Positions 36,188-39,384 of a DNA stretch of 64,000 nucleotides are shown in pieces. This DNA comes from Tianweitania sp. UT-5YL-CI-8 (GTDB taxonomy: Bacteria > Pseudomonadota > Alphaproteobacteria > Rhizobiales > Rhizobiaceae). The position numbers were made by a program, and so were the translations under genes. Each line of letters begins with the position of its first letter. The first letter of the stretch is position 1. The stretch is from assembly GCF_030010215.1 (NCBI RefSeq), contig NZ_JASCRR010000004.1, forward strand, positions 62,001 through 126,000. The letters are read 5' to 3'. The notes below the pieces were generated by a model. It was not told the origin of the DNA. It saw nothing but the letters and a program-made list of their open reading frames with translations, and searched no databases.

Positions 36188-36625
36188 TTGACCACGCCAG
36201 CCGAAATTCCGGCCGTCTCCGTCGCCCTCGTGCGCGGCGATACCGTCATGCTGGTGCGGCGCGGACACGCACCGTCCAAAGGCCTGTACGCCTTTCCTGG
36301 CGGACGGGTCGAGCAAGGCGAAACTCTGGAAGAAGCGGCGCGACGCGAACTCCTGGAGGAAACCGGGCTTGAGACCGCCGATCTTCGGCCGGTGCGCGAG
36401 ATCGTCATCGACAGCCGCCGGGAGGACAAGTCCTTCTTCTACCGACTGACCGTATTTACCGGCAACCATATCGGCGGCGAGCCGGTGGCCGGCGACGATG
36501 CCGACGAGGCGAGCTTTCTGACGATGGAACAGATGCAGGCGCTGCCGCTGACCGATTCGACGCTGGAGATCGTCATCGAATTGCTGGGCGAAGGCAGCGA
36601 TCCTGCCATGCGCTTGACAAATTGA
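36188..36625 (+). CDS. Nudix hydrolase
   Basis: 145 residues. The Nudix box is complete: GGRVEQGETLEEAARREL followed by LEETGL. It hydrolyses a nucleoside diphosphate linked to some group; which one cannot be told. I take the TTG at 36188 because GAGGAA lies at good spacing and homologues begin just before IPAVSVALVRG; no ATG fits as well. Its stop is followed after 17 bases by the next gene. Confidence 0.88.
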   Translation: MTTPAEIPAVSVALVRGDTVMLVRRGHAPSKGLYAFPGGRVEQGETLEEAARRELLEETGLETADLRPVREIVIDSRREDKSFFYRLTVFTGNHIGGEPVAGDDADEASFLTMEQMQALPLTDSTLEIVIELLGEGSDPAMRLTN

Positions 36626-36642
36626 GGGGGCATCAGCGCGCC

Positions 36643-37014
36643 ATGCGCGGACGTTTTGTCATAGCACTGTCGATGGTCTCTGCCCTTTGCCTGGCCCAGC
36701 CGGCGCAGGCTGCGGAAGCGCCGTTCGATGCCGGTTTGGCGCGGCTGGCCGAGGTGCTGGGCTCGCTGCATTTCCTGCGCAATCTGTGCGGGGAAAAAGG
36801 CACCGAATGGCGCGACGAGATGGAAAAGCTGCTGGCTTCCGAAAACCCCTCGCCCGAGCAGCGGACCAGGCTGGTTGCCGGATTCAACCGAGGCTATCGC
36901 TCGTTCGACGCCTCTTACACCTCCTGCACGCCTTCCGCGACCGTCGCCATCGACCGCTACATGAAAGAAGGCGAAGCATTGAGCCGGGACATCGCATCCC
37001 GTTACGGCAACTGA
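36643..37014 (+). CDS. TIGR02301-family secreted protein
   Basis: 123 residues. MRGRFVIALSMVSALCLAQPAQA is a signal peptide. The mature part LARLAEVLGSLHFLRNLCGEKGTEWRDEMEKLL and RLVAGFNRGYRSFDASYTSC matches the Rhizobiales-restricted TIGR02301 family; two Cys may pair. Function unknown. I chose the ATG at 36643 over a TTG at 36622 because GAGGGGG sits upstream of it. Probably cotranscribed with the Nudix gene. Confidence 0.85.
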   Translation: MRGRFVIALSMVSALCLAQPAQAAEAPFDAGLARLAEVLGSLHFLRNLCGEKGTEWRDEMEKLLASENPSPEQRTRLVAGFNRGYRSFDASYTSCTPSATVAIDRYMKEGEALSRDIASRYGN

Positions 37015-37090
37015 ACGCGCTCCGTGCAGAGCAAATGCTCATGGCGTGGGCATATGACATTTTTGCATAGCAAATATGCAAAAATTGCAA

Positions 37091-37118
37091 TTGATGAAAT
37101 CAAAGGCTTTCCCTACAT
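37091..37118 (+). promoter_or_regulatory. Candidate promoter of the anti-SD RNA
   Basis: TTGATG (37091-37096), 16-base spacer, CTACAT (37113-37118), close to the rhizobial CTTGAC/CTATAT-type consensus. The start would fall near 37125, exactly where the first hairpin of the RNA begins. Confidence 0.5.
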
Positions 37119-37124
37119 TTGACT

Positions 37125-37236
37125 TGTCAGCGGCTCACCTCCTCCCGGGCTTCTGACACACTGAACGCACTACTCCTCCTCCCAAGTGCGTTTCCAGATT
37201 GAGCCCGTCGCACCTCCTCCCGCGACGGGCTTTTTC
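37125..37236 (+). ncRNA. Putative small RNA with three CCTCCTCCC hairpin loops
   Basis: Three hairpins in a row. First: TGTCAG/CTGACA (37125-37158) with inner GCTC/GGGC and loop ACCTCCTCCC. Second: AACGCACT/AGTGCGTT (37164-37192), loop ACTCCTCCTCCCA. Third: AGCCCGTCGC/GCGACGGGCT (37202-37231), loop ACCTCCTCCC, followed by Ts. Each loop repeats the anti-Shine-Dalgarno sequence of 16S rRNA, the hallmark of alphaproteobacterial regulators such as the MmgR and cuckoo RNAs, which are thought to cover ribosome-binding sites. No reading frame spans it. Which Rfam family it belongs to, if any, I cannot say. Confidence 0.8.
37202..37235 (+). terminator. Terminator of the small RNA
   Basis: 10-bp stem AGCCCGTCGC/GCGACGGGCT and five Ts (37231-37235). 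The loop carries CCTCCTCCC. Confidence 0.85.
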
Positions 37237-37592
37237 GTTGCGCGGCCCTCCTTGAAAACTGCACAAATCGCTGCGGATGCATTGTCTCAGGCTATGCGCC
37301 GCCTTCATCTGCGGCTATACCGTGGCAACTGTGTTTGAAATGCAACAGCCTTAACGAAACGCTACCATCCAATTGTGTAATTAACTCAAAACTTAGGTTT
37401 CGGTTTCGGCGCCATAGGCAATCGACTACGATCCTTTGTATAGGAAGGCGCGTCGTACTCGGGCGGATGAGACCGGCGCTGCTCTGGCACAATCGGAAGC
37501 GTTTTGGTCTGCAGCGATTGTCGAGGTGCAGAGGGACAACTCAAGTCAGATCCGGTGTGTCGGGTCGCCGCTTGAAAGGGTGGAATTAGGAT
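37237..37592. other. Intergenic region after the small RNA
   Basis: 356 bases with no reading frame I can support on either strand. Composition is AT-richer around 37330-37400. It presumably contains the promoter of the 85-residue gene at 37593. Confidence 0.45.
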
Positions 37593-37946: not shown

Positions 37947-38744
37947 GTGATTTCTTACACGCTTACCTCGGCTTCGATTCGATCCGCGCGGCGCTTAGCA
38001 TTCGCAGCGGGTGCTGTGCTTTGTGTCTTTGCCAACACGTCCCTGCCCGCCTATGCGCTGAGCGAGATCAAGCGCGAGGAACTGCCGGCGCCCGCGCCAA
38101 GCCCGGACGATCAGTCCGCCCCTGAAAATGCGGTGCCGATGCCCGATCCGATTGCGCCGCCGCCGTCCACGGACGAGCCGACCGACCCGTCGGCACCGGA
38201 TGAGGAAGAACCCGAACAGGTCGAACCGGAAGAGCCCGACGCCGGCGCCGGTCCCGACCTCGACCCGAACGCGCCGCTGCCCGAGGTCGTCTACGACTTG
38301 AGCCGCCTGCCGGAGCCTGTCCGGCGTATGCACGGGCTGCTGGTGGAAGCCGCCAAGACCGGCGACATCGAGAAGCTGCGCCCGCTGATCGGCACCGGCG
38401 ACAGCGCCCCACAGCTCTCCTTCGGCGATATCGGCGGCGATCCCATCGAATTCCTGCGCGGCCTTTCCGGCGACACGGAGGGCCAGGAAATCCTCGCCAT
38501 CATCGAGGAAATTTTAGATGCCGGCTACGTCCATCTCGGCGAAGGCACCTCCGACGACCTCTATGTCTGGCCCTATTTCTTCGGCATCCCGCTGGATCGG
38601 CTCGACGCGCGCCAGCGCGTTGAGCTGTTCAAAATCGTCACCGCCGGCGACTACGAAGACATGAAGACCTTCGGCTCCTACATATTCTACCGCCTCGGCA
38701 TCACGCCCGAAGGCCGCTGGGCGTTCTTCGTCGCTGGAGATTGA
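37947..38744 (+). CDS. Exported hypothetical protein with Pro/acidic linker
   Basis: 265 residues from a GTG at 37947, with AGGGA upstream. Residues 1-37 (RSARRLAFAAGAVLCVFANTSLPAYA) form a signal peptide. Residues about 45-110 are a Pro/Asp/Glu-rich linker (DEEEPEQVEPEEPD). The C-terminal domain (about 115-265) is folded-looking: VRRMHGLLVEAAKTGDIEKLRPL, FLRGLSGDTEGQEIL, YVWPYFFGIPLDRLD, GSYIFYRLGITPEGRW. Seen widely in Rhizobiales as hypothetical. Probably periplasmic; function unknown. Confidence 0.8.
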   Translation: MISYTLTSASIRSARRLAFAAGAVLCVFANTSLPAYALSEIKREELPAPAPSPDDQSAPENAVPMPDPIAPPPSTDEPTDPSAPDEEEPEQVEPEEPDAGAGPDLDPNAPLPEVVYDLSRLPEPVRRMHGLLVEAAKTGDIEKLRPLIGTGDSAPQLSFGDIGGDPIEFLRGLSGDTEGQEILAIIEEILDAGYVHLGEGTSDDLYVWPYFFGIPLDRLDARQRVELFKIVTAGDYEDMKTFGSYIFYRLGITPEGRWAFFVAGD

Positions 38745-38783
38745 GAAAGTTGGCAAAATGAAAGCTATATGCTTACATTTGCC

Positions 38784-39060
38784 ATGATCCGATCGTTTCC
38801 TAGCAAGGTGCTGGCTGAGTTGTTCGAAGAGGCAGGTCGGCCGGCATTGATGCGCGGCTGCACAAGCGAATTCTTGTTCGTCTCGACCGGTTGGATGTTG
38901 CGACGCGACCGGAAGATATGAACCTTCCCGGCTTCGATTTTCATGGACTGAGGGGCTTCTCACCGACGCGCTACACCATCCATGTGAATGGGCCTGGTGC
39001 ATAACCTTTGAGTTCGACGGCAATGACGCAATGAAAGTCGACTTCGAGCAGTATCATTGA
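38784..39060 (+). pseudogene. higB: Frameshifted HigB toxin
   Basis: Begins MIRSFPSKVLAELFEEAGRP in one frame, then at about 38840-38847 continues as IDARLHKRILVRLDRLDV, ATRPEDMNLPGFDFHGLRGF and SPTRYTIHVNGP in another, then at about 38990-38996 shifts again to WCITFEFDGNDAMKVDFEQYH and stop. Joined, these give a normal HigB of about 92 residues. Length 277 bases is two short of an intact frame, fitting two net -1 shifts. The toxin should be dead; higA follows 9 bases later. Confidence 0.85.
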
Positions 39061-39069
39061 GGATTGGCG

Positions 39070-39384
39070 ATGGTTGACTATAACCCCAAGCGGCCTATCG
39101 AACGCTGCCCTTCCCATCCGGGAGCCTTGCTGGACGACATCATCCTAGCAACCGGCAAAACCAAGGTCGAAATAGCGAGCCTGCTCGGTATTTCTCGGCA
39201 GCAGCTTTACGACATCATCCGCGAACGCAAACCGGTCTCACCCTCCGTTGCAGCCCGGTTGGGTAAGATGTTCGGTGACGGCGCCGCCGTGTGGCTCCGC
39301 ATGCAGGCTGCCTACGATGCATGGCATGCCGAGCGCGAGACCGATGTCAGCAACGTGCCCACGCTCGGTGCCAAGGCGGCCTGA
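39070..39384 (+). CDS. higA: HigA-type antitoxin (XRE/HTH)
   Basis: 104 residues. HPGALLDDIILATGKTKVEIASLLGISRQQLYDIIRERKPVSP is the helix-turn-helix of HigA, and ARLGKMFGDGAAVWLRMQAAYD its usual C-terminal part. Intact although its toxin gene just upstream is frameshifted, so it is an antitoxin left over or serving as a stand-alone repressor. I use the ATG at 39070 rather than the TTG at 39064. The convergent pyrC gene ends 5 bases away. Confidence 0.9.
   Translation: MVDYNPKRPIERCPSHPGALLDDIILATGKTKVEIASLLGISRQQLYDIIRERKPVSPSVAARLGKMFGDGAAVWLRMQAAYDAWHAERETDVSNVPTLGAKAA

Follow-up and report, generated by a model that had tools for sequence, protein, structure and literature searches.

An αr14 small RNA gene with three anti-Shine-Dalgarno hairpin loops in Tianweitania sp. 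UT-5YL-CI-8

The element at 37125-37236 of the window (the whole stretch of DNA that was analysed, 64 kb in length) is a true but unremarkable αr14 small RNA, from the family to which Sinorhizobium meliloti NfeR1 belongs. It does not represent a new element, and its RNA gene opens no new mechanism. Peculiar to this copy are its position behind a TIGR02301 gene and a 27-nt palindrome upstream of it. We consider it very probable that this αr14 RNA has its own upstream promoter, ends at its third hairpin and uses its loops to block GGAGG-type ribosome-binding sites.

Identity and fold of the RNA gene

A search against Rfam matched RF02344 (ar14) at 37120-37237 on the + strand with 91.3 bits, well over the curated cut-off of 58.8 bits (cmscan, E 2.6e-15, full model 1-123). 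This was the only Rfam match in the 64-kb window at curated cut-offs, and a tRNA scan of the window gave no match. The gene and its parts are as follows.

37120-37237, + strand: αr14 (RF02344) small RNA gene of the NfeR1/cuckoo type (cmscan; predicted transcript about 37125-37236)
37125-37158, + strand: hairpin 1 (fold), loop CCTCCTCCC at 37138-37146, unpaired probability 0.99-1.00
37163-37193, + strand: hairpin 2 (fold), loop CCTCCTCCC at 37175-37183, unpaired probability 1.00
37201-37235, + strand: hairpin 3 with T-run, terminator-like (fold and sequence), loop CCTCCTCCC at 37213-37221, unpaired probability 1.00

Folding of 37125-37237 gave three hairpins at -47.4 kcal/mol (z = -6.60), and none of 200 shuffles was as stable. 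Stem 1 has 6+5 bp interrupted by a 1x1 internal loop, stems 2 and 3 have 9 and 11 bp, respectively, and the predicted unpaired probability is 0.99-1.00 at every base of all three motifs. This fold confirms the initial observation of three hairpins in a row that all present CCTCCTCCC unpaired in the loop. It also supports the proposed layout, in which an sRNA about 110 nt long (the size predicted here as well) has three anti-Shine-Dalgarno (anti-SD) loops and one of these belongs to a terminator-like hairpin; αr14 RNAs are expected to be stable transcripts of about 110-125 nt. The third stem (37201-37232) leads into TTTTT at 37231-37235. A terminator scan made no call at hairpin 3; the loop limit of the scan was 8, and the loop of hairpin 3 is 10.

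In all, the 64-kb window has three exact copies of CCTCCTCCC. They start at 37138, 37175 and 37213, on the + strand in every case, and fit inside an 84-nt span. Shuffled windows held a mean of 0.64 matches on both strands, and 3 of 100 reached three, scattered anywhere. Taken by itself, the number of motifs is just moderately rare; it is their clustering in hairpin loops that is unlikely. When the motifs were fixed and the rest of 37120-37237 was shuffled, all three motifs fell in hairpin loops in 4 of 1000 sequences.

Cuckoo RNAs were reportedly described by Reinkensmeier and Giegerich in 2015 as two to four adjacent hairpins with motif loops, a definition consistent with PMC3927594, and by this definition the fold, with its adjacent CCUCCUCCC hairpins, is of the cuckoo kind. 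The initial annotation was right in its cuckoo lead. Its suggestion of a family member with an added loop, or of a new type, finds no support, since αr14 RNAs are described with three hairpins, each carrying an unpaired, ultraconserved CCUCCUCCC anti-SD motif on stems that differ in sequence (PMC10746234); three motif loops are thus the normal form of αr14, and that of RFMSmelA075 too. Three- and four-hairpin families with the CCUCCUCCC loop motif were described in 2011 (PMC3927594). The window RNA shares three consecutive CCUCCUCCC-loop hairpins and several copies per genome with cuckoo RNAs and RFMSmelA075 (PMC3927594), and no difference from the three-hairpin form was found.

Permissive settings returned four matches below cut-off in 36950-37450, all other than ar14. 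CcsR1 (RF02791) covered hairpins 1-2 with 37.9 bits against a cut-off of 65.3 bits. Three further matches, to anti-hemB (26.6 bits), again to part of CcsR1 (17 bits) and to a betaproteobacterial toxic sRNA (16.7 bits), were rejected as identities, being sub-threshold and overlapping the ar14 motifs. CcsR1 of Rhodobacter has the same motif, but it stays under its cut-off both at 36950-37450 and genome-wide and is not a better name. The gene before the window copy is TIGR02301 and not DUF1127.

Copies and conservation across genomes

Seven ar14 copies in the window's own genome score above the cut-off. In a sample of 101 genomes (the window's own and 100 relatives; 61 belong to the same family and 40 to other families within the order), ar14 matched at E <= 0.001 in 73. 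These comprise 60 of the 61 from the same family, counting the window's own, and 13 of the 40 from other families. A match over the cut-off was found in 58 of the 101 genomes. None of 14 control genomes gave an ar14 match.

We aligned 37 copies, consisting of the window copy, its six paralogues and one locus each from 30 relatives; the 30 loci were those returned for the best matches, so the sample is biased to high scores. Three exact CCTCCTCCC motifs were present in 32 of the 37 copies, two in L005, L009, L022 and L030, and one in L006. With one mismatch allowed, three motifs lay in predicted hairpin loops in 36 of the 37, the exception being L006; in shuffles of the 37 copies with the motifs held in place, this arrangement arose in 1 of 740. 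The initial annotation would have been refuted by a lack of loop and stem conservation in relatives, and the aligned copies do show such conservation.

In these 36 copies, base pairs that differ from the window's pair on both sides occur in all three stems. At the two loop-closing pairs of hairpin 2 they were found in 26 and 27 of 36 copies, and at the fourth pair of hairpin 3 in 32 of 36, where pairs were taken from each sequence's own predicted fold and from CTCCTCC loops only, so that unpaired cases are under-counted and loops appear constant. The 36 sequences show stems that vary in sequence yet stay paired in relatives, which is a trait of αr14.

Several own copies have features of their own. 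L006 (1501-1618) is a decayed copy with one exact CCTCCTCCC left, and its three stems are still predicted. The copy at L005/L093 has a changed first motif and is found close to the end of a contig, with an integrase-like ORF about 300 nt upstream of it; this neighbour, read as an integrase by eye, could point to dissemination by a mobile element. In L007 (L095:1603-2220), the stop codon of a phasin gene (Phasin_2) precedes the start of ar14 by about 14 nt. A tiny, Pfam-confirmed DUF1127 gene stands just before the ar14 RNA in L006 and in relatives L026, L031 and L035, its stop codon 6 to 76 nt before ar14, and further copies look similar by eye. The order in these four resembles the published CcsR/CIN1 arrangement (PMC10253847), and by analogy the DUF1127-linked copies may be processed from the 3' end of an mRNA.

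Genomic setting and alternative readings of the window copy

Upstream of the sRNA, the following features were found.

36622-37014, + strand: TIGR02301/DUF2385 family gene (family search; start codon uncertain)
37036-37052, + strand: TGC-N11-GCA, a loose form of the published S. meliloti PnfeR1 NtrC site (pattern match; candidate)
37059-37085, + strand: perfect 27-nt inverted repeat with 11-nt arms and a 5-nt spacer, candidate regulator site
37091-37119, + strand: candidate weak sigma-70 promoter, TTGATG-N17-TACATT (read from sequence)

The sRNA lies on the same strand as the TIGR02301 gene, about 110 nt after its stop codon, and this neighbour sets it apart from NfeR1. Among the 42 named TIGR02301 loci returned, the closest protein was that of Oryzicola mucosus (Phyllobacteriaceae), with 96% identity. 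This locus (L038) was also the only one of the 42 with the motif on the + strand within 3-kb flanks, and L076 carried it on the opposite strand. Scanning 40 of the 42 loci with cmscan (all but L078 and L079) gave ar14 at cut-off in L038 only. Conserved microsynteny of ar14 with TIGR02301 is rejected for these 42 loci on the single + strand occurrence, and the ar14 copy at the TIGR02301 site is lineage-specific as far as the sampled loci show. Window and Oryzicola differ by one substitution in 37125-37236, and the stretch from gene to sRNA is well conserved in Oryzicola; this comparison of three genomes is effectively one of two, with L033 and L038 identical where aligned. Further along the window, 39064-39384 holds a HigA-family antitoxin gene (TIGR02607), and 38744-39064 contains no + strand ORF of 60 aa or more, so this antitoxin is perhaps solitary.

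The promoter-like pair reported initially is present, with TTGATG at 37091-37096 and TACATT at 37114-37119, but it is weak: 8 of 12 positions agree with consensus (counted by hand), and a promoter scan requiring 9 of 12 found nothing for the sRNA. The 27-nt repeat lies at about -66 to -40 from the predicted sRNA start, and its inner 25 nt are identical in L033 and L038. With up to 3 mismatches, this 25-nt core has its sole site in the window here and none in 100 shuffles; a 21-nt core has one further site in the genome, with 2 mismatches. Within 150 bases upstream of the 37 copies, the 27-nt repeat was found at the window copy and L033 only, and ten other copies carry inverted repeats (arms of 7 nt or more) that differ from it in sequence.

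The TGC-N11-GCA pattern has two loose matches upstream, with starts near -89 and -61, and one of the two falls within the 27-nt repeat; the NtrC motif of PnfeR1 is placed at -116 to -101 in the published description (PMC10746234). The LsrB box of NfeR1 is given as TGCA-N6-GCAT (PMC10746234). Its exact form is absent from 36991-37130, a weak test in that 1 of the 37 copies has it in the 150 bases upstream (L017), and the palindrome of the window copy does not fit the box exactly. We file the gene as αr14 and not as the NfeR1 orthologue.

Could the element mainly be the terminator or 3' UTR of the TIGR02301 gene, its RNA freed from the mRNA by processing? CcsR RNAs are reported to be processed from the ccaF1 transcript in Rhodobacter (PMC10253847), and the common strand and the distance of about 110 nt from the stop codon suit such an origin, as do two other own copies, one of which begins about 8 nt behind the stop codon of a DUF1127 gene and the other about 14 nt behind that of a phasin gene. 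We regard it as unlikely for the window copy, given that the intervening stretch is conserved in Oryzicola and holds both palindrome and promoter-like pair, and that 41 of the 42 named TIGR02301 loci have no + strand motif within 3 kb. Just as improbable, in our judgement, is a silent duplicate, intact in sequence and not transcribed. Its promoter is weak by consensus, and one of the six αr14 copies of S. meliloti is reported as reliably detected by Northern blot (PMC7143759), so any single own copy may be silent. Against silence speaks the comparison of window and Oryzicola, which differ by a single substitution across 37125-37236 and not at all in the palindrome's inner 25 nt, and all three motifs are exact in the window copy, whereas the own copy L006 is degraded.

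The MmgR/αr8 lead of the initial annotation, as an RNA of this suhB-like kind with extra loops, is extremely improbable. MmgR likewise has an anti-SD loop, and MmgR/αr8 and AbcR/αr15, which share anti-SD loops with the window RNA as alphaproteobacterial sRNAs, are described as partly homologous to SuhB (PMC7143759). With suhB standing in as a proxy for MmgR, no match was found in 36950-37450 at E up to 1; the ar14 model matched at full length instead. The single suhB match in the genome sits on a different contig.

Proposed mechanism and targets of the αr14 RNA

By analogy with published NfeR1 work, the window copy is most likely a trans-acting RNA that would block ribosome-binding sites. Transcription would begin at the promoter just upstream, and the transcript would end at the sRNA's own third hairpin. 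The three loops would each offer unpaired CCUCCUCCC to GGAGG-type ribosome-binding sites of several mRNAs, and this pairing would block translation, probably mostly of transport and metabolic genes. Such a role best explains the Rfam match, the seven copies, the family-wide spread, the fold compared with shuffles, the both-side pair changes and the accessible loops, together with the published αr14 description and the silencing experiments on NfeR1. The anti-SD motifs of αr14 are reported to be redundant in silencing (PMC10746234). Full-length match, three CCUCCUCCC hairpins, variable stems and several copies per genome are all shared with αr14/NfeR1 of S. meliloti (RF02344; Smr14C2, SmelC397).

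The sequence GGGAGGAGG lies 3-9 nt before ATG at six genome sites, and the backward pattern at 1. Two of the six precede long Pfam-matched ORFs, a Peripla_BP_6 substrate-binding protein and an AMP-binding enzyme; the former comes near the kind of target published for NfeR1, whose predicted targets are mostly transport proteins (PMC7143759). Of the other four full-complement sites, three precede ORFs with 3, 6 and 7 codons, and the fourth precedes a 97-aa ORF that gave no Pfam match at E 0.001. Pattern counts before ATG were 6, 26 and 122, against 1, 5 and 10, respectively, for the backward control. This excess is not specific evidence of a regulon, as it is expected of any Shine-Dalgarno sequence.

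NfeR1 is reported to silence ntrBC at the ntrB translation start (PMC10746234). Unlike this case, the likely ntrB start in the window's genome, where the ORF preceding the ntrC match was read as ntrB, has no GGGAGGAGG and only AGAAAGG. Simple complementarity at the likely start does not support ntrB as an obvious target, and RNAduplex energies for ntrB ignore the sRNA's own stems and are not usable either way.

The genome, which is close to that of Oryzicola, adds members to a riboregulator family already known to be multi-copy, among them one αr14 copy with a clear candidate regulator site in its 27-nt palindrome. It is conceivable, if somewhat doubtful, that the window copy is an Oryzicola-lineage αr14 paralogue under a private regulator acting through this palindrome. 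If true, the shared anti-SD output would answer a signal other than that of LsrB/NtrC-controlled NfeR1.
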